The notes under the pieces: generated by a model | Seen by the model: the letters and a program-made list of their open reading frames with translations, nothing else | What the model was told of the DNA's origin: nothing | Databases searched by the model: none | IMG/VR virus record: IMGVR_UViG_3300007513_000062 | Span: 1 to 50,375 of that record | Direction: 5' to 3' (one strand) | Length of the DNA stretch: 50,375 nt | Source of the DNA: a virus | Shown: piece after piece, positions 5,404 through 31,994 of the stretch | How positions within the stretch are numbered: the first letter of the stretch is position 1 | Layout: each line of letters begins with the position of its first letter | Position numbers and translations under genes: made by a program

Positions 5404-8400
5404 ATGGCAACGCTTACTCGTCCAGGCGTAGAGATCGCACAAGAAATTACTGCGGGTGCGCCTACAATTTTGACCCCAACTTTGGTTCCGTGCCTAGTTG
5501 GTCCTTGTTTTCAAATAGTCTCTCCTCTGACCGAGGATGGTGCTTTAAATACTGGCGCGGTTGTGTCAGTAGCAGCACTTCTCCAGAGTGACCAGCCGCT
5601 GCCCGAATCCCTGAGTTTATCAGGGAGAACGCTGCAGCTTAAGGTCAACAACGGTCAGGTTCAGACCATTAATTTCCCAGTAACTATTAACGGTGAGGCT
5701 ATCGATCATGCTTTAACCGTTAATACGATCAACAAGCAGCTTACGGGCGCTGTTGCGGAAATTATCGGTGATAAACTGAACATCCTAACGAACTCGAAGG
5801 GTTCCAGTCAGAAGCTTGAATTGATTCTGATTGCTGACCCGAATGTTCGTGCTGACACGATTCTCGAACTGGACCACCTCCAAGGGCTGGTTATTTCGGG
5901 ACAGAGTCAGTACTCGAACATTTCCTACACGGTGCCCTACTCCAGTTTCCCGTCGCCAATGGCCTCTGTGGACGAGGTGGTCATTTCGGACGAGAACACG
6001 AAGATGTACCGGTATTTTGGTGGCACTTTGAGAGAGTTCTCTGAGGACAGCGCCATTAATATCAATGCCTATTCGTGGGGACCGATGCAAGTTGCCAACT
6101 GCACCGTTGCCTCTTCGCATGGACCTGCCTATGGGGACTCCAAGTCCTTCATGTTTGGTAAGGTCAAGGCCGGTTCAAAGACCGACACCCTGCAGCACCT
6201 TGGGTCTGATGCATTTATGCACTTTCCCTTGTGTCACGATATTAGTCCTGATGGGGGCGAGTTAGCGGGGGCCACTCAATGGCCTGACCCAAGAGGGAAA
6301 AACCGACTCGTTATCAAGGCAGCGGGAATGAACGGCTACATGAGTAGCGGCAACATGGCGAACATGGGTGTCGCTGCGAGTGTGGGTACGGGCGGAAACG
6401 ACCTTACTCTTACCATCAACCATGCAGCGCAGCCTGTTCCGGGAACCGTAGATTCTGCCGTAGTTGTTTACACTCCAGGCGCTGGTCTCGCGATCACAGT
6501 TTCTGACGACACAACGTTTGCCACTCTTGAGGCGGCAATCGACTCTGCTGATATTCCCGCTAATGAGGTTTCTGTTTCACTTGAGTACGACGTGGATGAC
6601 CCCGCCGTAGCTACCGTGAGAGATTTCAGCAATGGGAGTCCCGCAGGATCTCCGTGGAATAACACGAAACAAGTTGCTGGGCTGGAACTGTCTTGGGGCT
6701 CTGACCCATACGACTTCTCCATCAATGCCCCGCTGACGCAGGGCGTCGGTGCTGGCGGCGTAGCTGACCAGGAAGATCTCTCTAGCGCATATGTTTGTGG
6801 AGCGATCCCTATTGGCGGAGACACTGCCGATGATCTTGGCATCGCTGGGGAGACTATTAAAATCTCTATCGACGGCGGTGTGCCCATTGAGCATACTTTT
6901 GTCGGCGGAGATGGCGTTGTGGCGGCTCTTAATACAGCCCTTACAGGGGTAGGTACCGCGACCACGGTTGGCTACAATCTAGCCAACCCGCTTGGCGAAA
7001 GCTTCCAGCCCCTTCGAATTCAGACTGATTCGGACAATGGGCACGACTCAACTATTGAGATCATTGTCGATAACGCTACGGTCACCCAAAGACTCTTCTC
7101 TGGGTCTATCTCGGCAACCTCTGGGGTTACAGCAATTGCGGCGCAGTCCGTCGCTCTTGATGAGGATCGTGGCGGGTTGCTTACGTCAGTCGCCTACAAC
7201 AATGTTCCTGGCCAAAACGAGTCTGTTTATCAGCAGGCCATTGTCCCCGATACCGTAACCGTTCAGGTGGAGGGCGCTTTGGCTGTTCCGGCCATCTGTG
7301 CGGGAACTGACAACCTCATGGAAGGTGGTCAGGTAGGAACGGCAGCTAACGCTGCTGCGGAACTCCACCTTGACCACGGCACTGGTGACGTACAGGTTGA
7401 CATCAACTTCCCCCTTAACGGTTGGGCTGATCTAACCACCGCCGCTGCTGCCATTCAGGCAGGAATCGTGGGCGCTGGTATCGACGGAATCGTGTGTGCT
7501 TCTGAGCACGCGGGAACGGTCGTTATCTCCCACTACGCTGCCAACCTTGGCGATACGTTGATTCTGAACTCCGCAAACACGGGCGCTGAAATTTCTGCCG
7601 CTCTTGGGAGTTGCTTTGACATTTCGTCTGCTTGCACCGCCGCCACGCTTACCCTGAGAGATTCTGGAGCTAGCCCCGCATTCCGAGTTGAATGTACCGC
7701 TGCTACTGGGCTCGGGAACCAAGTAAATGTCCCCGCTGGTTTAGACGAGTGGGTTATGGGTGGAGCAGAGGCAGCAAACACAGGCCGAGCAGCGACTCGA
7801 ATTGATTACTCCTCTGGAGACATCAATATTGCGTTTGCTGGCGATGACTTTGCTGGCGCTTACGATGCGGCTCATCCCATTTCTGTGAAACTTGGTCCTG
7901 CACCAACGGCCACTGTTACCTATAACCGCTCTTGGGCAAACACTGTCCAAGCGTCTAAGCAGGCTTACACGGGCAAGCTGCACCACGGGAGAAGCCACCG
8001 AACAGAGTTGTCTGACTTTGCTTGGAGTGACGGCGTGATTCTTGGCCGCATCTCTGCTCTCGAAGCCTTCTCTGCCCCCGGAGGTCCCTACCCCGGAGCG
8101 CAAGTAGTCCTTTCCGAGTTTGCGATGGACAACAAGCAGCTACTTAACAAGTGGTACTTTGTTGCTGACGGGGTGGTGGCTGGAGCTACCGATAACCCAC
8201 GCGTAGAGCCAGAAGCCCACGGCAATGACCTTGAGCAGATTTACACCATCAAGCACGCTCTCAATAGAGACTCTGCTGGTGTTGCAATCTCTGGCGGGGC
8301 GGACATCTATGTTGACTACACAGCCCTTCGACGGGATGTAACTGGTTCGGCTGCCGACCCAGGGTTATTAGTCTTTAATAGTATTGCCGAAGTTGAGGCA

Positions 8401-9777
8401 AACATCGGTCCTATCACCCCCGACAACCCGCTTGCATTTGGGATGTACTTGGCGTTCTTGAACACCACTAACATCAACATCGCAGCATTTGGGGTGGATG
8501 AGGTAACAGCCGATGCTCCGCAGGGGACCGTTAAGGCGTACGCAGAAGCTCTCGATTACCTTCAGTTGAAGGAAGTCTACGCGATGGCACCGTTGACCCA
8601 CGACATGGAAGTGTTCAAGGTCTTCAACCAGCACGTAGTTGATATGTCGGCCCCCACGGGTAAAAAAGAGCGAATGACTATCTGCTGCCCAGAGCTTCCC
8701 TCTGAAAAGCCTTCTACCCTAGCGTTCTCGTCAACGGACTTCGAGGCAGTTGATATCGGAGGCGGGAAGTGGGAAATCACAGACGCTAACGGTGGAAACA
8801 TCATGCTGGCTCTAAATGAGTCAACTGTGAAGGATTCCAACGGGCAGGCTCTTAGTGTCAGTGTTGGGGACTCTCTCCTTCCTGACCAAGATGTTTACCT
8901 TGACCGTGCTGGTGACCCGTACAGATATCTTGTTACAGGGCTGCCTGCCGCAGACACGATTCAAATCGAACCGACTAACGACGTGTGGCGTCCAGGTGTT
9001 TATGGCCCCGGGACAGGTGGAAACGATGACGCATATTACAACACCGCAAACCCCGTAGACTGGGCTTCAACCGGAGAAGCAGCAACCATCTTTGTCAGAC
9101 AGGCGGCTACTGATCTAGCTACCACTGGCGGCAAGTTGGCTACCTGCGAAACTCTGGCTGAGATCGCCGGTGGTCCTACAGGGTTCCAGAACAGACGACT
9201 TGTTTTGGTGCTCCCTGATCAGGTTGGAGTCTCTCTCGGCGGTCTCGAAGCTGCCGTTTCCGGCTACTACCTCTGCGGTGCCATCGCAGCCATGATTGGT
9301 CAGCAGAACCCGTCGCAACCGTTTACCAACCTTCCTATGGTTGGCTTTACGCGCCCGATTGGTTCCAACGATCTGTTTAGCGAAAACGCTATGGCAACCG
9401 CTGCTGCCGGTGGCATTTATTGGATTATCCAGGACAACCCTGGTGGGGCTTTGGTGTCAAGACACCAGTTAACTACAGACCTCACTTCCATTAAGACCAG
9501 AGAACTCTCTATTCTTAAGGCTGTGGACTACGTAGCTAAATTGTTAAGAACCCAGGTGCGGCGCTTTATTGGCCGTAACAACATTACTAAGCAACTGCTC
9601 GAAGCTATCTCTCTTGGGATGCAGGGAGCGCTTGCTAGTGTGACTGGCTCTGTTGTGGCTGAGGCAACTCTTGATTCTTTGACTCAAGACGCTGATCAGC
9701 CGGATACTATTAGAGCGGAAGTGACTTTGGTTCCGTTCTATCCCGCAAACTACATTAAGATCACTATTTACGTGTAA
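5404..9777 (+). CDS. Tail sheath protein, unusually large
   Basis: This 1457-residue protein would form the contractile outer sheath of the tail, which shortens to drive the tube into the host. The N-terminus (RPGVEIAQEI, then PTLVPCLVGPCF) and the C-terminus (LLRTQVRRFIGR, DTIRAEVTLVPFYPANYIKI) have the typical sheath pattern, including the final strand that links neighbouring subunits. Sheath proteins are commonly 400-700 residues; here roughly 300-1050 is extra Gly/Ala/Thr/Asp-rich beta material that looks like inserted surface domains. It has a clear GGAG site. The gene is intact, with no stop or frame break. Confidence 0.88.
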   Translation: MATLTRPGVEIAQEITAGAPTILTPTLVPCLVGPCFQIVSPLTEDGALNTGAVVSVAALLQSDQPLPESLSLSGRTLQLKVNNGQVQTINFPVTINGEAIDHALTVNTINKQLTGAVAEIIGDKLNILTNSKGSSQKLELILIADPNVRADTILELDHLQGLVISGQSQYSNISYTVPYSSFPSPMASVDEVVISDENTKMYRYFGGTLREFSEDSAININAYSWGPMQVANCTVASSHGPAYGDSKSFMFGKVKAGSKTDTLQHLGSDAFMHFPLCHDISPDGGELAGATQWPDPRGKNRLVIKAAGMNGYMSSGNMANMGVAASVGTGGNDLTLTINHAAQPVPGTVDSAVVVYTPGAGLAITVSDDTTFATLEAAIDSADIPANEVSVSLEYDVDDPAVATVRDFSNGSPAGSPWNNTKQVAGLELSWGSDPYDFSINAPLTQGVGAGGVADQEDLSSAYVCGAIPIGGDTADDLGIAGETIKISIDGGVPIEHTFVGGDGVVAALNTALTGVGTATTVGYNLANPLGESFQPLRIQTDSDNGHDSTIEIIVDNATVTQRLFSGSISATSGVTAIAAQSVALDEDRGGLLTSVAYNNVPGQNESVYQQAIVPDTVTVQVEGALAVPAICAGTDNLMEGGQVGTAANAAAELHLDHGTGDVQVDINFPLNGWADLTTAAAAIQAGIVGAGIDGIVCASEHAGTVVISHYAANLGDTLILNSANTGAEISAALGSCFDISSACTAATLTLRDSGASPAFRVECTAATGLGNQVNVPAGLDEWVMGGAEAANTGRAATRIDYSSGDINIAFAGDDFAGAYDAAHPISVKLGPAPTATVTYNRSWANTVQASKQAYTGKLHHGRSHRTELSDFAWSDGVILGRISALEAFSAPGGPYPGAQVVLSEFAMDNKQLLNKWYFVADGVVAGATDNPRVEPEAHGNDLEQIYTIKHALNRDSAGVAISGGADIYVDYTALRRDVTGSAADPGLLVFNSIAEVEANIGPITPDNPLAFGMYLAFLNTTNINIAAFGVDEVTADAPQGTVKAYAEALDYLQLKEVYAMAPLTHDMEVFKVFNQHVVDMSAPTGKKERMTICCPELPSEKPSTLAFSSTDFEAVDIGGGKWEITDANGGNIMLALNESTVKDSNGQALSVSVGDSLLPDQDVYLDRAGDPYRYLVTGLPAADTIQIEPTNDVWRPGVYGPGTGGNDDAYYNTANPVDWASTGEAATIFVRQAATDLATTGGKLATCETLAEIAGGPTGFQNRRLVLVLPDQVGVSLGGLEAAVSGYYLCGAIAAMIGQQNPSQPFTNLPMVGFTRPIGSNDLFSENAMATAAAGGIYWIIQDNPGGALVSRHQLTTDLTSIKTRELSILKAVDYVAKLLRTQVRRFIGRNNITKQLLEAISLGMQGALASVTGSVVAEATLDSLTQDADQPDTIRAEVTLVPFYPANYIKITIYV

Positions 9778-14645: not shown

Positions 14646-15489
14646 CGTAGTACCTCCAATATTTGTTAAAGTTTTCTTCAATTTGGCCTGCTGCCTCTAA
14701 GTACCCAGGCCCTAGGGATATCCCATCAGGGTCCTTAAGGTACGCGCCAGCTTGTTCTAAAATATTATTCGATAATAGAACCCGCATTAGCTCAAAACCT
14801 CTCACGAAGCCCCGCTGGTTAAACAAGAACCCACAAGCACTGCTGTTTGGGGGGCAGACCATAGATCTGTATATATTGAACCTAACCCGGAGGTAGGCCA
14901 GTGATCCGTACTCATTCCTTGTCTGCTCTCGCTCTGTTCGTATGCGAACAGAACATAGTCTATTTATAGTGCCTTCCAGGGCAGAGCATGGTTTCGGAAC
15001 CAGGGCCCTAACGGGAATTCTGAGTTGGTTTACTACCATGACAAGAGCCTCTCTTTTGAGAGCCTCTTCCCTAAGAAAGCTAAGTCCGTGGTAAGCGGCC
15101 TTCCTTTCGGCGTATGGAACTCGGTCTTCCACCCCCAGCGACTGATCGCACAGGGGCTCGGTTGACGACAAGGAGTCGATAACCACAACTTTCGCGCCAC
15201 CTTTAAGCAGCGAGTAGGTAGATTCTATCGAGGCTTCCATACTATTCGGGATAACCGCTACCAGATCTTTAGGACCAGCGGCCTGTATGTACGCGGGGCT
15301 AGGGAATGCTTCTGTGTGTACAAGAGCGGTAGGGAGGCCCCCAACGGAGGCCTCCCGCATCACACTAAAACAAAGCGTAGATTTTCCGCTAGCGTCTTCC
15401 CCGATCACTTCGCAAATCCCGCTCGGGAGTCCACCCAAAAGAGCTTCGTCTAATTGGTAGACACCTGTGCGATGCCGCTCATATATCAA
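14617..15489 (-). CDS. RecA-like ATPase
   Basis: The protein has 290 residues and starts with TTG overlapping the stop of the AAA gene (TTGA). Walker A is GEDASGKST at residues 30-38, Walker B is VVVIDSLSS near 98-107, followed by MVVNQLR, the usual RecA-type strand. It covers the RecA core but is shorter than bacterial RecA and lacks the C-terminal domain. It could act in phage recombination (UvsX-like) or as a dedicated ATPase of this operon; its position among partition, AAA and DUF genes leaves both open. Confidence 0.72.
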   Translation of the reverse strand: MIYERHRTGVYQLDEALLGGLPSGICEVIGEDASGKSTLCFSVMREASVGGLPTALVHTEAFPSPAYIQAAGPKDLVAVIPNSMEASIESTYSLLKGGAKVVVIDSLSSTEPLCDQSLGVEDRVPYAERKAAYHGLSFLREEALKREALVMVVNQLRIPVRALVPKPCSALEGTINRLCSVRIRTEREQTRNEYGSLAYLRVRFNIYRSMVCPPNSSACGFLFNQRGFVRGFELMRVLLSNNILEQAGAYLKDPDGISLGPGYLEAAGQIEENFNKYWRYYDGGSEGDHP

Positions 15490-17084
15490 CTATCGTTCCC
15501 TGTCTTTTTAAGCGAGTCCCACCCGTCAGCCTTTTTCGAGCCAGTGACTCTGGAGGATCTGCGTGGTTTTTGCTTTTTGACTTTTGGGGAATCAGACGTG
15601 TTCGCCATGAGGGCTCGACCATTAGCCCACTTTCGTAGGGACTCAATCTTTGTCCCCATGGTTGTTGATAGCGGTACAGTGTTTTCTGCTGCGAAAAGCA
15701 TGTCGTCGTTTTCGAGGTCCCGCTCTTCAGCGAAAGCTCGGTACATGCCATCAACAACAATCTGCTCAATCTCTGCGCCAGTGAAACTATCCGAAGAGCT
15801 AGCGAGCTTTTTAACATCGTACCTATCGGGATCTCTCCCAAGTCTAGAAATGTGGATACGGAACACCTCTTCACGATCAACCGCGCTCGGTAGATCAACG
15901 AAAAACAATTCGTCAAATCGTCCCTTGCGGAGCATCTCTGGAGGAAGTGCCGACACGTCATTGGCAGTTGCTACCACGAATACCTGAGAGGTTTTCTCAG
16001 ACATCCACGACAGGAAACTTCCAAATACACGAGCGGATGTCCCGCTATCATGAGAACCAGAAGCTGAGCCGAAGCCCTTTTCAATCTCATCAATCCACAG
16101 AACGCAAGGCGAAATAGCCTCTGCTGTCTTGATTGCTTTCCTGAAATTAGCTTCCGACTGTCCAACGTATTGCCCAAAAAGAGCGCCCACATCCATCCTA
16201 AGTACTGGCATTTTCCACGCAGAACCGATGCACTTGGCAGTCAAAGACTTACCTGTGCCTGGGATTCCAACGATTAGAACACCCTTTGGGTGGGGTAAAC
16301 CGAACTCTCGTGCTTCCTGGGTAAACGCCCGACCTCTTTGATCAAGCCAAACCTTTAGAGCATTGAGCCCGCCTACGTCTTTCATTGCACGATCAACTTC
16401 GTGGTACTGGAGAACTCCAGACTTTCTGATGATGTGTTTCTTCTCGTCTAAGACAACCTTGGCGTCGATGCCCTCACATTTTGCCAAAGACTTGGAAAAC
16501 ACATTCTCAACCTCTGTGAGCGTAAGCCCAAGAGCGGCGGAGCATCCTTCTTTAAGCATCTCGGCCTTGTCTTCGTCAGACCGGGAACCACCGAAGAAGT
16601 CCTCAAGAATGTGCTTGTTCCATTTTGCTAGTTCAGCTTTGCTGGGAAGATCAAAATCAACTACGGACATAATCTTCTCAAGTCTAGGCGGAACTTTTAG
16701 CTCGCTGTCAATTATTACCACGGTGATGCCGGGGTTCATTGTATTGGCCAGATCCCTCAGCTTTCGCTGCACTGGATAACACGGACCCTCATTCAGCCAG
16801 TAACCGAAATCCTTAAGAAGGAACACGGCTGATTGTTCATGGTCCCCGATCTTTTCGAGGATGTCCATTGGGGTTTCGATGTCCGGGAAATGTTCATTCC
16901 CGCAGTAGGCCCCTTCCGTAAAGCTCCACGTCCATAGGGAGGCGTTTGCTTCGGAAGCTGCGTTTTTACGTTCAATGACTTCCGCCAAAGCCTGCGCAAC
17001 CCGATGCTCTTCGTGACTAACCACGTAGACCACCGGGTGCGCCGCTCTGACTAGAACGTCGAGTTCTTCGACGCTACGGTTCAC
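15486..17084 (-). CDS. AAA+ ATPase, Ycf46 type
   Basis: The protein has 532 residues. It starts with GTG overlapping the ParB stop. Residues 1-225 form an N-terminal domain with a degenerate nucleotide-binding look; residues 230-480 are a complete AAA+ module with Walker A GIPGTGKS (273-280), Walker B VLWIDEIE (328-335), sensor-1 VATAND (371-376) and arginine residues in LRKGRFDE (385-392). The run LPHPKGVLIVGIPGTGKS and the following LRMDVGALFG are typical of Ycf46-like proteins. A protein-remodelling role is likely; the target is unknown. The C-terminus is a basic tail. Confidence 0.83.
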   Translation of the reverse strand: MNRSVEELDVLVRAAHPVVYVVSHEEHRVAQALAEVIERKNAASEANASLWTWSFTEGAYCGNEHFPDIETPMDILEKIGDHEQSAVFLLKDFGYWLNEGPCYPVQRKLRDLANTMNPGITVVIIDSELKVPPRLEKIMSVVDFDLPSKAELAKWNKHILEDFFGGSRSDEDKAEMLKEGCSAALGLTLTEVENVFSKSLAKCEGIDAKVVLDEKKHIIRKSGVLQYHEVDRAMKDVGGLNALKVWLDQRGRAFTQEAREFGLPHPKGVLIVGIPGTGKSLTAKCIGSAWKMPVLRMDVGALFGQYVGQSEANFRKAIKTAEAISPCVLWIDEIEKGFGSASGSHDSGTSARVFGSFLSWMSEKTSQVFVVATANDVSALPPEMLRKGRFDELFFVDLPSAVDREEVFRIHISRLGRDPDRYDVKKLASSSDSFTGAEIEQIVVDGMYRAFAEERDLENDDMLFAAENTVPLSTTMGTKIESLRKWANGRALMANTSDSPKVKKQKPRRSSRVTGSKKADGWDSLKKTGNDS

Positions 17085-17977
17085 TATTCACCCATCCTGA
17101 TCCGTCTCTTCTTCTTGACGGCGGGCTTCTTAGTTTCCCTCTTGACCTCAACCTCATCCACGTTGTCGATGATGTGAAGAAGGTCTTCTGTGTCGATTTC
17201 ACAGAAGTACCAACGAACGACTCGGTCTACCGCTTCACGGTATTCCTTATCGAGGTCGGCGTCCTCATTCGCGAGGAACGTTCGAAGTTCCTCCATCTCC
17301 TTCTTGGACCTGTAGGTCTTGGCACGTTTGCGCTGGTTGGCCTTAGGAACCTCGTCCTTGCCCATCCCCAGGATAGCCTCAAGAGCTTCGTCCTGGGCCT
17401 TCTCGTTTGGCGTCCCATCATCCTTGATGATCTTAGCCAAGCGCTTAGCCTGCGTCATAGTAATACGACTGTGACGAAGCGCCTCGAAGGCAACGGTGCT
17501 CAGACCCTTGTAAGTAGCGCACAATACAGAGACCTGGGGCTGCGAGATGTTAAGCATGCTAGCCACAGATTGCTGATTTCCAACACGGTCGTTTAGCCGG
17601 TAAACGGCCTCACACTTATCCGCGAAGTTCAGCGTCTCTCTCTGAAGGTTTTCGGCAATATTAAGCGCTAATGCGTCATCGAGGCTTCCCTCATGAACAC
17701 CGCACGAAATAGTATCGAAGAATCCTTCATCTTCTTCACCACGAGAGTCTCTCTCGTCCAGGATGGCCTGGAGCCTACGGTAACCAGCAATCAGTAAGAT
17801 ACGCTCGTTACCCTTATCGTCGGTAAGGACATGGACGATGGGAGGGTTCAGAAGTCCATCGGAAATGATGGATGCTCTGAGGTCCCTGGTATCACCGATA
17901 TCTGACCGGCTGTTCTTGAATCCGAGAGTATTCCTCTCAATTTTTCCAATCTCAAAGGATTTTTGCGCAAGTTGCAT
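17084..17977 (-). CDS. ParB-like partition/regulatory protein (PRTRC ParB-like)
   Basis: The protein has 297 residues. The ATG at 17977 is chosen because TAGGAGG precedes it. It has the ParB N-terminal domain with LLIAGYRRLQAIL (the GxRR nucleotide/DNA-clamp motif) and NIAENLQRETLNFADK, then a helix-turn-helix (NQQSVASMLNISQPQVSVL) and a charged C-terminus. ParB proteins bind palindromic sites and can slide as CTP-dependent clamps. Six near-palindromes lie upstream in two clusters and are its probable targets. No ParA or ParM partner is seen in the window. With the ThiF, JAB, E2 and Ubl genes upstream it completes a PRTRC-like set. Confidence 0.8.
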   Translation of the reverse strand: MQLAQKSFEIGKIERNTLGFKNSRSDIGDTRDLRASIISDGLLNPPIVHVLTDDKGNERILLIAGYRRLQAILDERDSRGEEDEGFFDTISCGVHEGSLDDALALNIAENLQRETLNFADKCEAVYRLNDRVGNQQSVASMLNISQPQVSVLCATYKGLSTVAFEALRHSRITMTQAKRLAKIIKDDGTPNEKAQDEALEAILGMGKDEVPKANQRKRAKTYRSKKEMEELRTFLANEDADLDKEYREAVDRVVRWYFCEIDTEDLLHIIDNVDEVEVKRETKKPAVKKKRRIRMGE

Positions 17978-18060
17978 TAGTTTCCTCCTATCTGCGTTGA
18001 TAAGCGCACACACACGGTGAAAGTTTCTGGGTTGTAGTAGTCGGGAATAACCAACCCATA

Positions 18061-19473: not shown

Positions 19474-19532
19474 CCTACCGGGAGGACGGTAGCCACCGTA
19501 CATTGGTGACTACCGCCCCTCTCCCGGATAGG
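19474..19532 (-). terminator. Long hairpin after the 247-residue gene
   Basis: Nested pairing: CCTA and CCGGGAG (474-484) with CTCCCGG and TAGG (521-532), and an inner CGGTAG-CACC arm with GGTG-CTACCG. In minus sense it is followed about ten bases later by a short T run, so it could end or weaken transcription between the conjugation genes and the coiled-coil/ParB part. It could also be an RNA structure of its own. Confidence 0.5.
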
Positions 19533-19547
19533 ACTAGAAGTAGATGA

Positions 19548-20291
19548 CTACTTCTGAGCGGCTGCTCTACGGCCCTGGCGGGCTCTACGTACTTTCTTGA
19601 ACCGAAGCCCATCATCCTTCATAAGGATAACGTGAGCCTCCGTGAGGGCTGAGGTCAGGGCGACCTCTTCGCTCTCAGCGTCCCACTCGCCCTTGACGGC
19701 CTTTGCATAGGTCGGCTGGACGAACTTGGAGATGGCCTTGGGAACGTCTACGTCGAACTTGAGGCCACGGGAAGCAGCCAAATTCACAACGAAGGCCTTG
19801 ATGCCCAGCAGGGCATACAGGACACGATCCTCTTTAACCATTTCCCCCTCGGACACCGAGAGGCCGGTATCACGTTCAAGAGTGGACTTAAGCTCACCCC
19901 ATCGGTCGAGACCCTGGAGCATAAGAGCAGAAGCGATGGCGGAACGAATGAACTTGTTCCTACCTTCAGCCGAAGCTTCCCTCGTGGGCTTCTCCGTACC
20001 TCTCCCCCAACCACCCTGAACAATGAAGTTCATGGCAGCCGTTCCCCGGAAGAAACCATTGGTCTCCAGGGTGAGAGCGAACTTGCATCGCTTTCCGCCA
20101 GCGGCCACGGGGGTGCCGACGTAAATGATGGAGCCATCGGCTCGGATCTGCTTCATGAGGTCCACTGTGACCTTGCCACCTGAGTGGGACTCATGCTCGA
20201 CTGACATCACGTCAGGCGCTCGTTGTGGGTCTACTAGACCTCCCATGGGAAGACCTGTGGACCAGGACCTGTTAGTATCAATACCGCTCAT
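19548..20291 (-). CDS. Unknown protein at the end of the ubiquitin-like gene set
   Basis: The protein has 247 residues. The ATG at 20291 is chosen because GGAGG lies five bases upstream. It has a beta-rich N-terminal half with Gly-rich turns (VTVDLMKQIRADGSIIYVG, CKFALTLETNGFFRG), a helical C-terminal half and a very basic end (RRARQGRRAAAQK). It follows the E1-like gene after about 40 bases. I see no enzyme motif. It could be a substrate, a nucleic-acid-binding protein or a scaffold of the system; it does not match the PRTRC protein E or F patterns I can recall. Confidence 0.65.
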   Translation of the reverse strand: MSGIDTNRSWSTGLPMGGLVDPQRAPDVMSVEHESHSGGKVTVDLMKQIRADGSIIYVGTPVAAGGKRCKFALTLETNGFFRGTAAMNFIVQGGWGRGTEKPTREASAEGRNKFIRSAIASALMLQGLDRWGELKSTLERDTGLSVSEGEMVKEDRVLYALLGIKAFVVNLAASRGLKFDVDVPKAISKFVQPTYAKAVKGEWDAESEEVALTSALTEAHVILMKDDGLRFKKVRRARQGRRAAAQK

Positions 20292-20330
20292 AATAGCCTC
20301 CTTCACATATGTGATGTTTTTACGGTTTGC

Positions 20331-21005
20331 CTAGTTGGCGACGGTGGTGCACCGATTCAGGAAAATATTAGCGAAGTCAATCTCCGCTGAATTAAACCTG
20401 ATCGGCTCACCTATAATGCTCTTCGCAAGCAAAGAGCAGATTATTGAAGACAGGCCGTACGCACAGAACACCGTGGCCTTTTCAGTACACGGAAGCGCTA
20501 CCGCTTCATCATCGCTGAACAAACTTCCTTCGTACTTTTCGATTGTCTCTCGATTTGACTTGTCTACGAAAAAGACCTGTCCAAATCGTGCGGCCATCCG
20601 GCCATCGATAAAATATCGGGAAGTTGTGCTCATGAGGAAAGACTCGAAAATTGCCTTCCGGGAAGCCATGTTATCTACAGCAGAGATCACATATGTTTCT
20701 CGGAATTGGTGGCCATCTTCGACCCGTTTGTCCTCAGCGATAATTTCAGCGCCAGTGCCTTCTGTAAGACGATTAGCTAGTGCTTCAACTTTCTTATACC
20801 CGATTTCGGGTATGAAATAGCCTTGGTTGCTGAGGTTGTGAACCTCAACAGTATCATCATCAAAGATGTGTAGATTTCTAACACCCATCTTTGTCATAGC
20901 CTCTGCGGTGTGAGAGCCAATAGCCCCCACTCCGACAACAGCCACAGTTGTATTTTTGACAAGCTCATCAGGAATAATTCCAGATTGTCTCGTTGTATCA
21001 ATCAT
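20331..21005 (-). CDS. E1/ThiF-like activating enzyme
   Basis: The protein has 224 residues (227 if the ATG at 21014 is used; the ATG at 21005 has AGGATGG in front and overlaps the JAB stop). In 227-residue numbering: GVGAIG at 28-33 is the nucleotide-binding loop; DDDTVEVHNLSNQ at 52-64, with K75, is the ATP-site pattern of E1 proteins; AVDNMASR at 112-119 is the conserved DN-x-x-x-R motif; Cys176 in LPCTEKATVFC is the likely catalytic cysteine. It would adenylate the Gly-Gly end of the ubiquitin-like protein and pass it to the E2-like protein. It is a minimal E1 without extra domains, as in ThiF of PRTRC cassettes. Confidence 0.86.
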   Translation of the reverse strand: MIDTTRQSGIIPDELVKNTTVAVVGVGAIGSHTAEAMTKMGVRNLHIFDDDTVEVHNLSNQGYFIPEIGYKKVEALANRLTEGTGAEIIAEDKRVEDGHQFRETYVISAVDNMASRKAIFESFLMSTTSRYFIDGRMAARFGQVFFVDKSNRETIEKYEGSLFSDDEAVALPCTEKATVFCAYGLSSIICSLLAKSIIGEPIRFNSAEIDFANIFLNRCTTVAN

Positions 21006-21984
21006 TGGTGCCATCCTTTTTTACTTCTTCCTCTTCTTCCTCTTCGCCGTCATCGGAGAACACGAGAAGGTTGTCTACCTCTTCGTCCTTTTCCTCTTCA
21101 TGGACAAAGCCGTGGACAAGCTCAAGTTCCTGTACGACCTCGTCTTCCGAGAGTTCCTTGGCATAGAACTGCGCGAACAGTTCCATAGCATCGTTGGCAC
21201 CGATTTCATTTTCGTCGTAAGCCTTCTGAAGGACTTCAAGGCCTTCCGGAAAATCCAAGGGCTCGATCACCTCTTCCACAGAAGACGTGTCAGCTTCGTA
21301 TGCTCCATGAACCCCACTAGACCACGCTTCATCATCCCAACCGGCGATGTTAGATCCACTGACTCGGGTGTAGCCACCATAGTGACCGTGACCGTTCCAG
21401 TACGACCGCGTAGAGGGTGCCTTTGTAACGCTTAGACGTTCAGCCTTCTGAACCACGTGATTCACGTGCTCTTCAACCATCTCCTTGGCCCATCCGTCAG
21501 GAAGGACGCTGATTTGGTCAACTGAGTGAGGACACTCCATAAAGGAGTAACGAATCGGGTCGAATAGATCTACCCGAAGGTTCATTTCACCTTTCTTATT
21601 TGTGATCACGGAAATGAGAGCAGGCTCACAAGCAAAAGCTTCAATCTGCTTTTCATCAATAGGGGACTGTCCCGTTCCCATGTCTACATGGCTATGCCAC
21701 CACACGTTGTGGTTGTGTCCATTTACGCCACGCTCGCTAAGCATTCTCGTCATTTCGTGAATGGACTCGGCGGGGATAGTCGTGGTTATACCGGTACAAT
21801 CTTGGTTGTAGACGAAGTACTCAAGGACGTAATAGTCCTCAGTTACTCCGGCAGCTTCCTTTTCCGCCTCTGTGGCCGTAATGCCCATGGCGCTAATTTC
21901 TATCTTGCACTCAGCAGTGAGTGCCCACATCTGTTGCCATGCTTTCTGAGAAAACCTGACCGTTGGCTTACTGGTTACCTTCAT
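20998..21984 (-). CDS. JAMM/JAB-domain metalloprotease (isopeptidase-like)
   Basis: The protein has 328 residues with a GGAGT site. WWHSHVDMGTGQSPID at residues 95-110 is an exact HxHx7SxxD zinc motif (H97, H99, S107, D110), with Glu29 as the likely catalytic acid. JAMM proteases cut isopeptide bonds after Gly-Gly and can trim modifier precursors; here either removing the last residue of the modifier or deconjugating it is plausible. Residues after about 170 form a separate region ending in an acidic tail (EEEEEEE). The start overlaps the E2 gene by 17 bases and its stop overlaps the E1 start, so all three are translationally coupled. Confidence 0.88.
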   Translation of the reverse strand: MKVTSKPTVRFSQKAWQQMWALTAECKIEISAMGITATEAEKEAAGVTEDYYVLEYFVYNQDCTGITTTIPAESIHEMTRMLSERGVNGHNHNVWWHSHVDMGTGQSPIDEKQIEAFACEPALISVITNKKGEMNLRVDLFDPIRYSFMECPHSVDQISVLPDGWAKEMVEEHVNHVVQKAERLSVTKAPSTRSYWNGHGHYGGYTRVSGSNIAGWDDEAWSSGVHGAYEADTSSVEEVIEPLDFPEGLEVLQKAYDENEIGANDAMELFAQFYAKELSEDEVVQELELVHGFVHEEEKDEEVDNLLVFSDDGEEEEEEEVKKDGTND

Positions 21985-23050
21985 TTACAACTCCTAGTGT
22001 TTTGAGGTTCGTCACCGCTACTTCTGCGGGCTTAATAAAATCGACAAATTCCCCCAAAATACACTGACCCTTTTCTTGTGAAGGGTTCGAGTTTCGGTGG
22101 TATCTCATACATTCGGAAAAACTTAATCCGCATGTGTTTGTGGTTTCTTTGTTTTCGCACTCGGCGCATCCGTCGATGTACAAAGACTTTCCACACGAAC
22201 ATTTCTTGTGCTCCCAACGGTTGTTTACACCGAACAAGGAGAGCCTCGCGAAAGGGTCTGTGTGGTTATATGAGATCAGGTACTCAGTCACTGTGTAGAC
22301 AACGTTAGCCACGTCTTGGTTTTTCATATGACCCAAGAGCATCCGCTGCACGTTCCCAAGACAGGGTTCCCCATTGTCCCTTATGTGTGGGTGGGTATAC
22401 TCGGAGTAACGGCAGTTGCCCCCAACGGGCTTAAACGAACCGGTAACCTGAGCAACACCCCTGTAGTAGTTGTATCTGATTATTACACTGAACTTACCGA
22501 AGGAGTGTGGCAGGTAACCCCCAACACCATCCTTCATTCGGATGTTGTTCGTTACCCACGAAACTGTTGCTTCCTTGGTAACTGGATCGTCTGCGTATGT
22601 AATGGGTGATCGCTTATCAATGAACTGCTCAACAGACCGAAGCATAAACGCTCTGTTTACAAACGCCCCATCTGAGTAGATTTCAGAGAAGTTACCAAGA
22701 AAGCCGCCGTGCGTAGAAAGCTCCGTCTGGATGTCTCTCATCTTGTCTTTAATGACAGAGGCCTCGTTTGACCTACGCAAAAACTTTTCCCTAGCATCAA
22801 GCGTCTTCGCACTAGCCTTTTGCCAGTCGTCACGCTTTTTCATTTCTCTAGATCGCTGCGTCTCGTATATTCTTTGCCTGCTTGCTATCTTTGCTTCTAC
22901 GGCAGTGCTTTTCTTAGACAGTCCCTCAAGCGTTGCTGAAAGCTTAGATACTTCTTTTTGTGCTGAGGAGGCGGCCTCTTCGATTATGGTATTTAATACG
23001 GAGCCAACTGAGGCTTCGTCGTCGTTTAGCTTGAATGAGTAGGTTCCCAT
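21968..23050 (-). CDS. E2-like ubiquitin-conjugating enzyme with coiled coil and Cys-rich tail
   Basis: The protein has 360 residues. The ATG at 23050 is chosen because GGAGG lies four bases upstream. Residues 15-115 are coiled coil. Residues about 165-270 match the E2 core: strands (FGKFSVIIRYN, AQVTGSF), then THPHIRDNGEPCLGN at 219-233, close to the HPNI-x-x-x-G-x-x-CL signature of true E2 enzymes, with Cys230 as the likely thioester residue, then two helices. Residues 284-330 hold Cys at 284, 286, 295, 298, 307, 314 and 330, a probable zinc-binding module that could guide substrate choice. It lies in the place of PRTRC protein B. Confidence 0.8.
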   Translation of the reverse strand: MGTYSFKLNDDEASVGSVLNTIIEEAASSAQKEVSKLSATLEGLSKKSTAVEAKIASRQRIYETQRSREMKKRDDWQKASAKTLDAREKFLRRSNEASVIKDKMRDIQTELSTHGGFLGNFSEIYSDGAFVNRAFMLRSVEQFIDKRSPITYADDPVTKEATVSWVTNNIRMKDGVGGYLPHSFGKFSVIIRYNYYRGVAQVTGSFKPVGGNCRYSEYTHPHIRDNGEPCLGNVQRMLLGHMKNQDVANVVYTVTEYLISYNHTDPFARLSLFGVNNRWEHKKCSCGKSLYIDGCAECENKETTNTCGLSFSECMRYHRNSNPSQEKGQCILGEFVDFIKPAEVAVTNLKTLGVVNEGNQ

Positions 23051-23072
23051 GACACCTCCAAATGTTGGGCAC

Positions 23073-23106
23073 AAAAAAAGAGGGAGTGAGCAAAGCCCAC
23101 TCCCCC
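23073..23106 (-). terminator. Terminator between the ubiquitin-like gene and its enzymes
   Basis: GGGAGTG (23082-23088) pairs with CACTCCC (23098-23104); in minus sense this strong stem is followed by seven T residues. It sits in the gap between the ubiquitin-like gene and the E2-like gene. Partial read-through would give much modifier and little enzyme. Confidence 0.75.
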
Positions 23107-23128
23107 TTCTCTGTATTAAGCTGTAATA

Positions 23129-23581
23129 CTAGATTCCGCCTGCGACCTTTTGCGCAATGAAAATCTCATGCTCGCCAGGGCCCACTGCCTGAGTCAAATC
23201 GGTAATCTCTACCGTCTGACCCGGGCCGACTCGGCGCTTAAAGGTAACGTCTTGCGTTGACCAATTTAGGGAATGCATCAAGTCCGCCACAGTCGTGTGT
23301 GCGGGAACCTCTACGCAACGATCACTCTTTCCGCTTCTAATGAGAGACACAACGCAAAAGTCTGTGTCACCAGTAGCCTTAGCGGAAACACTGGCAGCCG
23401 CCGATGCGGCCTCTGCCGCTTCGAAAGCACCGGTCTTATCCGTTACCATCTTCTGAAGAGCGGAAAGTTTATCCATTGCTGGCTGAGAGAAATTCTCCGC
23501 CAGTTCCTTGTACTGCGCGTCTCGCTGCTGGGTTACCTCTTCGAGGTCAGTCTTGAGTCGAGCTAGGTTATCATTTGCCAT
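23129..23581 (-). CDS. Ubiquitin-like modifier protein with C-terminal Gly-Gly-Ile
   Basis: The protein has 150 residues with a GGAG site seven bases before the ATG. Residues 1-70 are a helical, partly coiled-coil and Ala-rich lead. Residues about 74-150 have the beta-grasp order: strand (FCVVSLIRSG), strand (DRCVEVPAHTT), helix (VADLMHSLN), strand (VTFKRRVG) and final strand (HEIFIAQKVAGGI). The end is Gly-Gly plus one Ile, so trimming of one residue by the JAMM protease would expose the active Gly-Gly. No Lys-48-like chain site can be deduced. It corresponds to PRTRC protein C by position and fold but carries an extra N-terminal region. Confidence 0.78.
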   Translation of the reverse strand: MANDNLARLKTDLEEVTQQRDAQYKELAENFSQPAMDKLSALQKMVTDKTGAFEAAEAASAAASVSAKATGDTDFCVVSLIRSGKSDRCVEVPAHTTVADLMHSLNWSTQDVTFKRRVGPGQTVEITDLTQAVGPGEHEIFIAQKVAGGI

Positions 23582-23936
23582 CTGGCGTCTCCTTCTCCCA
23601 CGAAAATTGTGGGAATGTGTCTGTTATAGCTTTTGTAATGTCTTCCAGCGTATCGCCGCACCACCATATGACAGAGCTATCCCCGGAGTTGACGCGTGTA
23701 GCGCCCTTCCCAGAAAGGTTAGCTTCGGGACCTTTCGTCCTGTCTGTGGTTGATGCAGAGGCTGTATATTCGAGCCGGTCTAAGGAATCTCCTGGTATCT
23801 TTGGCGCAGGGCCGAAGTACAAGGACACAGACCAATTCCCGAACGATGTAGTTTTGACAGTCTTCTGTTTCCCTAAGGCGTCGATTATACTTTGCGGCCC
23901 TGGGTGATCGGGGATAAAATCATCATCCGATTTCAT
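23571..23936 (-). CDS. Small protein at the head of the conjugation operon, unknown
   Basis: The protein has 121 residues with GGAG five bases before the ATG; its end overlaps the ubiquitin-like gene start. It looks like a compact alpha/beta domain (NWSVSLYFGPAP, LEYTASAS, SVIWWCGDTLEDITKAITDT). It may be co-translated with the modifier. No family is recognised; candidate roles include a regulator, adaptor or substrate. Confidence 0.6.
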   Translation of the reverse strand: MKSDDDFIPDHPGPQSIIDALGKQKTVKTTSFGNWSVSLYFGPAPKIPGDSLDRLEYTASASTTDRTKGPEANLSGKGATRVNSGDSSVIWWCGDTLEDITKAITDTFPQFSWEKETPDGK

Positions 23937-29358: not shown

Positions 29359-29435
<77 letters not shown>

Positions 29436-29451
29436 TCTCAGGGGGACTCAC

Positions 29452-29925
29452 TTAAGAAGATATTTGAGCTTTTGTATCCGGAGCGGAAAGGTCCAAAAAC
29501 TTAATCTCGCCACTCAAGATCTTAGGCGTCCAGCTTCCGTTCAGCTTTTCACTGAAGAAACTTAGTGACATCTTCTTCCCGCCCTCCTCAAGAATAGAGA
29601 AGGCTCTCAGCAGAGAACTGTCGTTAGAGATGATCATCACATCTTCTTGTTTCGACATTGCTGCCCATACACCAAGCTCCACTGAGAAGTTTGGCTTTGT
29701 ATTAAAGTCATAGATGTGCAGGGTTACACCGAGACCCTCCAGCCGCTTCAGAAACTTTGTCTGGGACTGGTTCTTTGGGTCGGCAATCGAAAACGCATGG
29801 ATCTCCACAACGTCATCACCTGTTGCCTGACTTTTTATCCACGTGATTAGATTCTCGTAGTTCACCGTGATGTTTATTTCGCGTATAGCAAAATAGAGCG
29901 AACTGAGGTCTACGCAAACTAGCAT
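29452..29925 (-). CDS. NYN-domain (PIN-like) RNase-like protein
   Basis: The protein has 157 residues with a GGAG site. It has the NYN/LabA layout: an opening acidic strand (MLVCVDLSSLYFAI), a middle helix and strand, ELGVWAAMSKQEDVMIISNDSSL with the second acidic pair, and a final strand. Such domains often cut RNA. It lies directly next to the tRNA-Arg gene, so tRNA or mRNA processing or defence is possible. Confidence 0.65.
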   Translation of the reverse strand: MLVCVDLSSLYFAIREINITVNYENLITWIKSQATGDDVVEIHAFSIADPKNQSQTKFLKRLEGLGVTLHIYDFNTKPNFSVELGVWAAMSKQEDVMIISNDSSLLRAFSILEEGGKKMSLSFFSEKLNGSWTPKILSGEIKFLDLSAPDTKAQISS

Positions 29926-29935
29926 GGCTCTCTCC

Positions 29936-30178
29936 TTATACCGATACGGCCCACGACGTATCTTCCTTGGAGAGGTCTACCGAGTAAGAATGGCTAGGTT
30001 CAAACAAGGTCTCAATCTCTTCAATAGTCATGGGCGTTTTAATCTTTGACTCATCTGTAAGGTGGATTATTGATCCAGGATCTCCTGACTCAACCCACAG
30101 AACATTGGTAATATTAACAAGAGCCGTAGTTTCTGTGGAACCCTCACTGGTCATGAACACAGGCAGGCGCTTAATCAT
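29936..30178 (-). CDS. Small protein, unknown
   Basis: The protein has 80 residues with a GGAGGGG site. It is beta-rich (TTALVNITNVLWVESGDPGS), with no motif recognised. It lies in the run of small accessory genes around the tRNAs. Confidence 0.55.
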   Translation of the reverse strand: MIKRLPVFMTSEGSTETTALVNITNVLWVESGDPGSIIHLTDESKIKTPMTIEEIETLFEPSHSYSVDLSKEDTSWAVSV

Positions 30179-30181
30179 AGA

Positions 30182-30823
30182 CTACCCCTCCCTCTTGTCT
30201 AACCACGCAAACACGGACTTTGCAGCAGCGTCGTACTGAAAGCCCCGCCCCATTTTTGAATCGTATTCCAGCCCCAAATCATTAGCAAGGGCGATTATTA
30301 CGTTCAAACCGTACACGGCTTCCATCTCTTCCACAATTTGACCGTCTCGAAAGATGGTTCCCTTGGGGCACCATGCGGAGACCTCGTGGATGTCTTTACA
30401 CATCAACTGAGCCACAAGTTCTTCGGCCCAGCCCTCCTCATCAATGTCCCCGGCAAGCATCCCGTGATCGGACTCATCAATGAGGCCCTTGATGCCCTCA
30501 GCGATTGCCTCGATGGCCCTGTAGCTAGAAGTTCTCTTGCTTACGTGGGTTTCTTTGAGGTGGTCTACAACCTCTTCAGGGAGACCGGCCTCTAAATACG
30601 CAGACGGCTCAAACAGAGTATGTCCGTCTCCGAGTTTTACAGTATTACGAATAGTTTCTGCGGACAGATTTTCTGCCCATCCTGGTGAAAGTGTCATACG
30701 ACCCTCCTGTTGGTTTATTTCCTTGTAATAATAGTCTGCTGGTGATTTCCAGCAGTACGGACAATGCGGTACATCTTTTTCGTATGATAGCGCACAGTTA
30801 AGGCACTGTATCACGGTGATCAT
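30182..30823 (-). CDS. Zinc-ribbon plus acidic domain protein
   Basis: The protein has up to 213 residues. The first part holds CLNC and CPYC, a zinc ribbon; the rest is an acidic helical domain. A strong GGAGGG site precedes the internal ATG at 30697 (MTLSPGWAENL), so a shorter 171-residue product may be the main one, or both are made. The longer start overlaps the preceding gene by 26 bases. The function is unknown. Confidence 0.58.
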   Translation of the reverse strand: MITVIQCLNCALSYEKDVPHCPYCWKSPADYYYKEINQQEGRMTLSPGWAENLSAETIRNTVKLGDGHTLFEPSAYLEAGLPEEVVDHLKETHVSKRTSSYRAIEAIAEGIKGLIDESDHGMLAGDIDEEGWAEELVAQLMCKDIHEVSAWCPKGTIFRDGQIVEEMEAVYGLNVIIALANDLGLEYDSKMGRGFQYDAAAKSVFAWLDKREG

Positions 30824-30944
30824 CTTTGGCTACCACATGCCGTGAACATTTAGGGCAGGCCCTAATTGGGGTGCCACGTTTAAGCTTGGTCCTATACAGA
30901 GAACCGCATCCTGGACATTTTATCGATACTACTTTTTTAGCCAT
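30798..30944 (-). CDS. Small zinc-ribbon protein, 48 residues
   Basis: A short frame from ATG at 30944 to TAA at 30798-30800 with CPGCG and CPKCS spaced as in a zinc ribbon, many Lys/Arg residues and a GGAG site close to the ATG. It overlaps the next gene's long start. It may bind RNA, DNA or a protein partner. Confidence 0.6.
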   Translation of the reverse strand: MAKKVVSIKCPGCGSLYRTKLKRGTPIRACPKCSRHVVAKDDHRDTVP

Positions 30945-31019
30945 ACGGCTCCGATTTCCTCCGGTTCTAGGTCAGATAAAGTGAGGCATCTGTTTAGCTA
31001 ATCGTCCTACGCCACAAAG

Positions 31020-31170
31020 CTACCATCGGCGGGCGGTGCTCCCCCATGCCTCCCTGCGGGTCTGAGAGTGCCAGCAGTGGCTACTAAGGCCGGGGTCGGG
31101 CTCCGGCGATAAACCAACCCAGTGGGAGCGCAGGGGAATTGTAGCGCTCGCTTCCGACACGGGGCTTTTT
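31020..31170. ncRNA. Candidate structured RNA with possible pseudoknot
   Basis: This gap has no gene but many mutually consistent helices: 31087-31105 forms a 7-bp stem (GCCGGGG with CTCCGGC), 31067-31084 a second stem, 31128-31146 a third (AGCGC with GCGCT), GCTCCC (31039-31044) pairs with GGGAGC (31124-31129) and CCCTGC (31052-31057) with GCAGGG (31130-31135). The last two pairings interleave, giving a pseudoknot or two alternative states. It lies between the zinc-ribbon gene and tRNA-Lys. It does not match a tmRNA, RNase P, cobalamin or TPP element that I can recognise. The strand is not settled. Confidence 0.45.
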
Positions 31171-31207
31171 GCTGACAGGCTCTCATATTTTCTCCTCAGA
31201 GACTTAT

Positions 31208-31223
31208 TAATAATACGTTATTA
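31208..31223. promoter_or_regulatory. AT-rich inverted repeat
   Basis: Arms TAATAA and TTATTA with four bases between lie upstream of the structured stretch in minus sense. It may be a promoter or operator element for transcripts running leftward. Confidence 0.3.
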
Positions 31224-31283
31224 CAAGCCAGTGTAAAATACCCCGAATGGACTCTGTTGGCAAAGGCCCCCAAAGTAAAAAAG

Positions 31284-31359
31284 TGGTGGGCCGCCTGGGA
31301 CTTGAACCCAGAACCTGCGGATTAAAAGTCCGATGCTCTACCTGTTGAGCTAACGGCCC
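31284..31359 (-). tRNA. tRNA-Lys (anticodon TTT)
   Basis: A cloverleaf in minus sense: acceptor GGGCCGT with GCGGCCC, anticodon loop CTTTTAA (anticodon TTT), T arm GGTTCAAGTCC and encoded CCA. It reads AAA and AAG codons. Confidence 0.92.
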
Positions 31360-31375
31360 TGAAAATAGAGTGTAT

Positions 31376-31461
31376 TGGTGGGGCTGGAGGGACTCGAACC
31401 CTCAATCCCATAGGGCGTCAGATTTTAAGTCTGATGCGTATACCAGTTCCGCCACAACCCC
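31376..31461 (-). tRNA. tRNA-Leu (anticodon TAA)
   Basis: A class II tRNA with long variable arm. Acceptor GGGGTTG with CAGCCCC, anticodon loop CTTAAAA (anticodon TAA), T arm GGTTCGAGTCC and encoded CCA. It reads TTA codons. It lies 16 bases from the tRNA-Lys gene. Confidence 0.92.
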
Positions 31462-31510
31462 TAGAAGAGGACAGGTACCCCCGGCAGTCTTGCTACCGGG
31501 GGAACCCGTC

Positions 31511-31873
31511 CTAATTCATGAAATCTTTATCAGGCTTCGGCATGTTGGCCAGCATTTGCTCAGCTAGATCGTCTTTTGTCATTTTTCTACATTCAGCTAT
31601 TCCGCTGTCAACAATTACGTCTTTGAGCATTTCAAGTTTTTGGTGGTGCTCTTCCAGAGCAGCACACATGCTTGAAAGAAGAGCGGCTATTGCGGGGTGC
31701 TCTTCCTCAAACTTCGCTGCGGACTTCAGGTGTTCAGTTAGTCCCTCAAGGGCGGGCAGGAACTCTTTAACACCCTCATCATCATCAGACTTTTCTCTAA
31801 TAAAATCAGTGAACTGTTCAATAATTTTTATGAACTGGTTCCCTGCCTCTTTGCTTTCATTTTCTCTGCTCAT
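31511..31873 (-). CDS. Helical acidic protein, unknown
   Basis: The protein has 120 residues with a GGAGG site and is almost entirely helical and acidic (QFIKIIEQFTDFIREKSDDDEG, ALEEHHQKLEMLKDVIVDSG). It lies between tRNA-Leu and tRNA-Ile genes. No family is recognised. Confidence 0.6.
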   Translation of the reverse strand: MSRENESKEAGNQFIKIIEQFTDFIREKSDDDEGVKEFLPALEGLTEHLKSAAKFEEEHPAIAALLSSMCAALEEHHQKLEMLKDVIVDSGIAECRKMTKDDLAEQMLANMPKPDKDFMN

Positions 31874-31898
31874 GCATCCTCCTTCTAGATGTCGTTTT

Positions 31899-31994
31899 TG
31901 GTACGCCCGGTGGGACTCGAACCCACAACCTCGCGCTTATCAGGCGCTAATACGGGGTATAAGTCCGCTGCTCTAACCATTGAGCTACGGGCGC
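31899..31994 (-). tRNA. Unusual tRNA-Ile with two anticodon-like hairpins
   Basis: The 96-base gene has perfect acceptor (GCGCCCG with CGGGCGT), D arm, T arm (GTGGG-TTCGAGT-CCCAC) and encoded CCA. Between D arm and T arm are two hairpins instead of one: the first has loop CTTATAC (anticodon TAT) on a weak stem, the second has stem GCGC and loop CTGATAA (anticodon GAT) followed by a normal variable loop. Without about 20 bases (31949-31968) it would be an ordinary tRNA-Ile(GAT). It could be a tRNA with an insertion, a class II-like form reading ATA, or a non-functional variant. Confidence 0.75.

Follow-up and report, generated by a model that had tools for sequence, protein, structure and literature searches.

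The window analyzed here, i.e., the whole 50,375-base IMG/VR virus record IMGVR_UViG_3300007513_000062, is probably a fragment of a larger genome, its close relatives measuring 148-180 kb. Its minus strand encodes, in this order, a protein of 121 amino acids (aa), a putative ubiquitin-like modifier, an E2-like protein, a JAMM metalloprotease, an E1/ThiF-like activating enzyme and a protein of 252 aa, and the four central genes form a cassette that spans positions 20331-23581. An earlier note, made from the sequence alone, had claimed a complete set of modifier, E2, JAMM and E1 genes in a tailed phage. This set is confirmed, and all the motifs that the note named are present in the single minus-strand run. 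The features on which the analysis is centered are the following.

23129..23581, minus strand: ubiquitin-like modifier, 150 aa (AlphaFold2 model and alignment).
23132..23140, minus strand: codons of Gly148-Gly149-Ile150, with the predicted JAMM processing point after Gly149 (sequence and alignment).
21968..23050, minus strand: E2-like protein, 360 aa from ATG 23050 (conservation, profile and Foldseek).
22361..22393, minus strand: E2 active-site stretch HPHIRDNGEPC, His228-Cys238 in the numbering from TTG 23074 (sequence and conservation).
20998..21984, minus strand: JAMM/MPN+ metalloprotease, 328 aa (profile matches and motif).
21655..21696, minus strand: JAMM zinc motif HSHVDMGTGQSPID, H97xH99x7S107xxD110 (sequence and conservation).
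20331..21014, minus strand: E1/ThiF-like activating enzyme, 227 aa (PF00899, 8.8e-22, Pfam).
20487..20489, minus strand: E1 Cys176, candidate thioester cysteine (a Cys in 81 of 82 phage E1 rows).

The whole cassette is found in the same order in the phage record L001 (148 kb), and it is also complete in L015 (180 kb) and L016 (156 kb). The modifier and E1 of L001 are 87 and 89% identical to those of the window, whereas its E2 and JAMM share 50 and 55% identity, and all the catalytic residues are kept in the three relatives. This conservation of cassette and catalytic residues argues for a conserved family and not for a chance assembly. Profiles built from two sequences found only the known relative, and it was a profile of ten phage E1 rows that opened the family, matching 243 loci in IMG/VR, of which 80 were kept. 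The same profile gave two matches in 84,980 cellular genomes, both on contigs of metagenome-assembled genomes, in a one-pattern scan that is less sensitive than a two-pattern one. We have examined 90 loci, including seven crAss-like or related records, the Flavobacterium phage Fpv3, a Xanthomonas phage and one huge phage. All four genes were found together in 76 of the 90 loci; taken singly, JAMM is present in 86, the E2-like protein in 82 and the modifier in 77, most of the gaps being contig ends or divergent members. Since the loci were picked by E1 similarity and some are copies of one virus, these counts show co-occurrence and not natural frequency. Thus, the cassette is not peculiar to one myovirus, as the earlier note had presented it, but occurs widely among tailed phages, the crAss-like phages of the human gut among them, and all four genes occur in the cultivated phages crAss001, DAC17 and Fpv3.

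Three clades can be distinguished: clade A (the window, L001, L015 and L016), clade B (L019, L020, L033, L051, L054, L073 and L088) and clade C (crAss-like and Flavobacterium phages), with L017 and L030 as further outliers. Pairwise profile comparisons, whose values are not database-calibrated, link the E2s of A and B at 97.4%, of B and C at 93.4% and of A and C at 53%, and the JAMMs of A and B at 98.4% and of A and C at 80.7%. The genes gp76-gp79 of crAss001 and their equivalents have the modifier-E2-JAMM-E1 order and the catalytic residues of the window, but their modifier ends in SG plus a long tail and their E2 carries YxHSH..C, whereas the modifiers of the window clade end in GG plus 1-3 residues. 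These crAss genes are annotated as 'thiamine biosynthesis protein', 'metalloprotease domain' or hypothetical. In the open literature that we searched (preprints and many subscription papers lying outside it), there was no published description of a phage ubiquitin-like conjugation cassette, nor of the crAss genes as such.

The modifier consists of an N-terminal helical hairpin (residues 1-66), a beta-grasp domain (about 74-145) and a C-terminus reading ...KVAGGI, i.e., VAGG followed by one Ile. The window modifier alone had no significant family match, so that relatives were needed to confirm it, and a PDB search with its profile returned chance matches only. Its AlphaFold2 model, built from eight sequences (pLDDT 77.9), shows the helical hairpin and then the order beta-beta-alpha-beta-beta-beta; the beta-grasp fold, whose absence the earlier note had named as a refutation, is therefore present. 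The model matches MoaD (Z 9.0, 2.6 Å over 70 residues) and ubiquitin (Z 8.4, 1.9 Å over 70 residues), with Gly149 falling at ubiquitin Gly76, and further matches SUMO and the Caldiarchaeum ubiquitin (6fno_D). VAGG is invariant in the four clade-A modifiers and is followed by the tails I, I, NAC and F, as would be expected of a precursor from which the tail is removed. Clade-C modifiers have one Gly that is invariant in 58 of 58 sequences, in most of them as part of K(I/V)(K/R)SG, and the tail behind it measures 1-206 aa; those of clade B are small and ThiS-like, with [D/E]G or AG before a short tail. In L017 (8925-9338), a tandem two-copy modifier, KVKGG|QKL...KVKGG|K, with each copy ending in PKVKGG, precedes the E2 and JAMM genes; by analogy, it resembles a polyubiquitin precursor, here in a virus.

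The E2-like protein most likely starts at ATG 23050, which has the Shine-Dalgarno sequence GGAGG, TTG 23074 being the alternative. Its catalytic cysteine is Cys230 from the ATG, as the earlier note had it, and C238 from the TTG. The motif stretches of the window protein are HPHIRDNGEPCLGN and THPHIRDNGEPCLGN. H228, P229, C238 and G240 (TTG numbering) are invariant across nine phages, and the clade-C proteins carry YxHSH..CxG, with the Cys kept in 60 of 62. The core is flanked by an N-terminal coiled coil and a C-terminal Cys-rich region, which in clade B becomes a long Cys-rich array; these and the helical hairpin of the modifier are the extra domains that had been noticed before. The window protein alone had no significant family match, and a single-sequence scan for its relatives came back empty. 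The top PDB match of the E2 profile is a RING2-UbcH5c fusion (E 0.0015), in which HPH..C is aligned on HPN..C. The model, built from nine sequences, runs from a helix through strands and the active-site loop to two more helices, an arrangement that fits an E2. In Foldseek, Ubc9, Ubc9, Cdc34 and Cap2 take the first four places (E 0.005-0.024), and the VIA list of the model consists mostly of E2s (Z about 5-5.7), VIA-align being a list that lacks some beta-grasp and E2 families, so that absence from it excludes none. Thus, the best model matches around Cys230 are E2s, as had been anticipated, but they are weak, and we provisionally accept the fold because they combine with the match of HPH..C to HPN..C of UbcH5c. 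As a separate observation, the Xanthomonas phage PhiXhv-12 (L008:2718-7470) encodes a candidate modifier ending in SGG, an E2-like protein of 892 aa, with HPHM..CLG and a very Cys-rich C-terminus, and an E1. The PhiXhv-12 genome yielded no JAMM, and we have counted this, together with the ready-made SGG end, in favor of conjugation.

The JAMM residues E29, H97, H99, S107 and D110 are invariant in the alignment. The window protein alone had no significant family match and scans for relatives with the single sequence gave no hits, but the profile matches Rpn11/PSMD14 (best E 1e-6) and the Caldiarchaeum Rpn11 homologue (6fjv), and a Prok-JAB match is present in seven of nine members. Among 86 relatives, 81 have an unbroken motif. 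Its loss in the other five was considered and discarded as only apparent, since these genes proved to be split at the motif by insertions. The split lies exactly at the HxH codons in L067, L050, L041, L044 and L046, between the E2 and E1 genes; a group I intron was detected at the insertion in three of the five (Rfam), and L050 has an open reading frame with a LAGLIDADG-like GYFDGDGCISF stretch. Group I introns are usually found where an important gene tolerates the least change, and splits at HxH, typical of insertion into essential codons, thus argue for function and not against it. The mutated active sites that the earlier note had mentioned as a possible refutation were not seen in the relatives, where the sites are conserved instead.

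The E1 enzyme contains the motifs GVGAIG, DNMASR and PCTEK, and the best match of its profile is UBA5 (E 3e-17). The adenylation residues are conserved almost throughout the 82 phage rows, and judged from its sequence E1 would combine them with a candidate thioester-type Cys. Its dN/dS among close relatives is 0.06; no value is given for the modifier, E2 and JAMM because dS is saturated. In a midpoint-rooted E1 tree with eight outgroup rows, 81 of the phage rows come together in one group (95/86), apart from the branch that carries PRTRC ThiF (97/86).

This last result bears on the proposal of the earlier note that these genes, with a ParB-like gene nearby, are PRTRC-like, i.e., a PRTRC cassette captured by a phage and linked to ParB-based partition. 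The ParB-like gene exists.

17084-18013: ParB-like gene, outside the 19548-23936 span.

We have compared the cassette with two plasmid PRTRC cassettes and the NCBIfam models, and with PRTRC A, B and C by hhalign. The general gene mix is the same, and the PRTRC ThiF and ParB models match E1 at 1.6e-17 and the ParB-like gene at 2.5e-7, but the scores of 63.7 and 29.6 bits are far below the cut-offs of 144.75 and 278.6 bits, respectively. The hhalign values are all below 1% (0.1% for the PRTRC-C modifier and 0.4% for the PRTRC-B E2). In PRTRC-B, the Cys of GQICIG is followed by HPN, whereas in the window E2 HPH precedes the Cys. The PRTRC-B order agrees with the description of operon type 6d, in which the E2 is without the classical His ahead of the Cys but carries one behind it (Iyer, Burroughs and Aravind 2006; PMC1779556). 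The 6d/PRTRC operons likewise have separate genes for a Ub-like protein, an E2-like protein, a JAB protease and E1 and belong to mobile elements (PMC1779556), but their modifier (PRTRC-C) ends in GAKG or GTKG, with no tail, whereas that of the window ends in AGGI, i.e., GG plus a tail; they include PRTRC E, F and ParB genes and lie on plasmids and islands, not on phages. No match to PRTRC proteins E and F was found among the ten proteins around the cassette, and a survey of the window and 18 records detected the ParB gene in no phages other than the four of clade A. We have therefore rejected membership in PRTRC on the scores, the active-site order, the modifier end, the ParB distribution and the E1 branch, and ParB, confined to the four closest phages, is not considered part of the system. 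That a captured PRTRC cassette explains the locus is extremely improbable.

The stop-start overlaps that had been described hold for E2/JAMM and JAMM/E1, of 17 nucleotides (nt) each, but not for the modifier and E2 genes, which are separated by a hairpin.

23073..23104, minus strand: intrinsic-terminator-like hairpin and T-run between the modifier and E2 genes (fold and comparison with relatives).

This hairpin is present in 4/4 clade-A phages with fold z-scores of -4.15, -1.94, -5.71 and -4.28, although a consensus terminator scan of the window did not list it. Its maintenance with differing stem sequences suggests that the modifier is made in excess over the enzymes, the hairpin being a predicted attenuator.

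Sequence, profiles and models show the parts of the cassette with their catalytic residues, the joint conservation of these parts and an invariant Gly followed by a variable tail, and from this we infer each reaction step, the formation of conjugates, the attenuation and the targets. We propose, with a probability of roughly 0.78, that the phage encodes a ubiquitin-like cascade that would mature, activate and conjugate its own modifier to proteins during infection. JAMM would trim the modifier precursor after ...VAGG; E1, with ATP, would adenylate the exposed Gly and take the modifier onto Cys176, and C238 of the E2 would then receive the modifier. Either a separate E3 or the coiled coil and Cys-rich C-terminus of the E2 itself would direct its transfer of the modifier to target lysines, from which JAMM may also remove the modifier, and the terminator between the modifier and enzyme genes would keep the modifier in excess. 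The Cys-rich C-terminus may act as a built-in E3. In a more detailed version, put tentatively and at slightly less than even odds, tailed phages, crAss-like ones included, would carry a self-contained system that reprogrammes phage or host proteins early in infection: the modifier, in some cases tandem, would be made as a precursor and matured by JAMM, E1 would activate it, and a RING-like zinc region within the E2 would serve as ligase. Because genes for primase, uracil-DNA glycosylase, resolvase and exonuclease surround the cassette in crAss-like phages, we would guess that the targets are phage or host proteins of the replication phase, although this guess would sooner prove wrong than right.

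Several points weigh against the conjugation proposal. Its support consists of sequence, profiles and models. The call of the E2 fold is weak (pLDDT 67.8; no Foldseek E below 1e-3; VIA Z 5.7 at 4.7 Å). No E3 was identified, and the Cys-rich region has a pLDDT of 31-41. The modifier families of the clades are not convincingly linked by profile (hhalign 8% for A-B, 1% for A-C and 24% for B-C), a weak linkage that is common for such small domains.

The resemblance of E1 to ThiF and of the modifier to MoaD/ThiS would also fit a sulfur carrier, in which E1 makes a modifier thiocarboxylate that feeds a nucleotide, tRNA or cofactor and JAMM regenerates or matures the carrier. ThiS/ThiF, MoaD/MoeB and CysO/Mec+ are precedents, and phages do thiolate nucleic acids. 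Sulfur-carrier systems, however, work without an E2, whereas an E2-like protein in which His and Cys are conserved is present in nearly every relative. In the phage records that were inspected, the annotated neighbours include no rhodanese, thiazole synthase or molybdopterin gene, whereas a known Staphylococcus plasmid ThiF does adjoin such genes. Tandem modifiers also suit a tag better, and we consider the sulfur carrier quite improbable.

The cassette likely works like the ubiquitin-like conjugation systems and is a member of neither PRTRC nor CBASS. The chemistry of CBASS type II Cap2/Cap3 and other bacterial E1-E2-JAMM systems is alike, Cap2 being the fourth Foldseek match of the E2 model, but CBASS is a host defence with fused E2-E1 in which the CD-NTase is conjugated, whereas the window has four separate phage genes and a dedicated modifier. 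In fact, the test for CBASS type II failed, E1 and E2 being separate and the scanned proteins giving no nucleotidyltransferase match. The Bil/ISG15-like systems are host anti-phage genes, a BilA-D set with a fused double modifier, and with regard to them PADLOC on the window proteins returned generic E1 matches only. The ubiquitin/E1/E2/RING/Rpn11 set of Caldiarchaeum subterraneum is likewise compact and operon-like, with a precursor processed by an Rpn11-like JAMM (PMC5654768), but it is cellular and has a separate RING protein, whereas the window set is viral and its Cys-rich region is fused to E2.

Since Cap2 and other bacterial E1/E2/JAMM systems act in anti-phage defence (PMC10097602; review PMC12355090), the cascade might serve counter-defence, a question of target and not of chemistry: it would tag or strip host defence proteins, e.g., of CBASS type II or Bil type, or its JAMM would mainly deconjugate a host ubiquitin-like defence. 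The E2 coiled coil (37% identical to L001, the least conserved part) and the JAMM tail (53%) diverge fastest, as compared with 92% for the beta-grasp, as target-facing parts might. A pure deconjugase, however, needs no modifier, E1 or E2 of its own, and in crAss-like phages the cassette keeps a fixed position amid replication genes, which does not resemble a typical anti-defence island, so that counter-defence is possible but rather unlikely.

If the conjugation proposal is true, it would reverse the known picture, in which bacterial ubiquitin-like conjugation is mainly host machinery, much of it anti-phage, since here a virus encodes the pathway with its own modifier, and it would add an extra layer of protein control in phage infection. 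It would also correct the 'thiamine biosynthesis protein' annotations in many gut-phage genomes, and a phage E1/E2/JAMM/modifier branch with classical HPx..C sites bears on the origin of the eukaryotic ubiquitin machinery. As crAss001, DAC17 and Fpv3 are cultivated, the proposal is testable now. The search for Gly-Gly remnants on lysines, which the earlier note had recommended, would miss the conjugates, because trypsin should leave VAGG (284.15 Da) in the window phage or mostly SG (144.05 Da) in the crAss clade, and the standard Gly-Gly enrichment is designed for neither.

Two further genes flank the cassette.

23571..23936, minus strand: small upstream gene, 121 aa, syntenic and conserved in L001, L015 and L016.
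19548..20306, minus strand: gene directly downstream of E1, 252 aa, conserved in four phages.

The upstream gene overlaps the modifier start by 11 nt, and family scans of its product gave no match. The 252 aa product is a candidate substrate or cofactor. The idea that the gene after E1 is a substrate common to the clades was discarded, the window gene and the crAss genes being unrelated (hhalign 0.1%). A long GC-rich hairpin lies right after the 252 aa gene (19478-19527, minus strand), with a T-run about 10 nt further on, and radical-SAM-like gene pieces are found downstream of the clade-B cassettes in L073 (8191-8973) and L088 (7999-8763).

Farther downstream on the minus strand (15486-17084), the window encodes a Cdc48/PAN-like AAA+ ATPase (phrog_8638, 1e-139), and a stretch 42% identical to it occurs in a Streptococcus satellite phage. 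This ATPase lies 2-11 kb downstream of the cassette on the same strand in four clade-A and four clade-B phages. As an unfoldase partner it is kept only as an idea, since it is also common in phages without the cassette (mycobacteriophages and others).

The earlier note had called the virus a myovirus, and the sole basis for this name is one tail-sheath match (phrog_279, 2.4e-7). A protein of 1457 aa (5404-9777, plus strand) matches phage tail sheath in its last 200 residues and is thus an unusually long sheath-like protein. Finally, four tRNA genes, Arg-TCT, Lys-TTT, Leu-TAA and Ile-TAT, are located at 29359-31994 on the minus strand.

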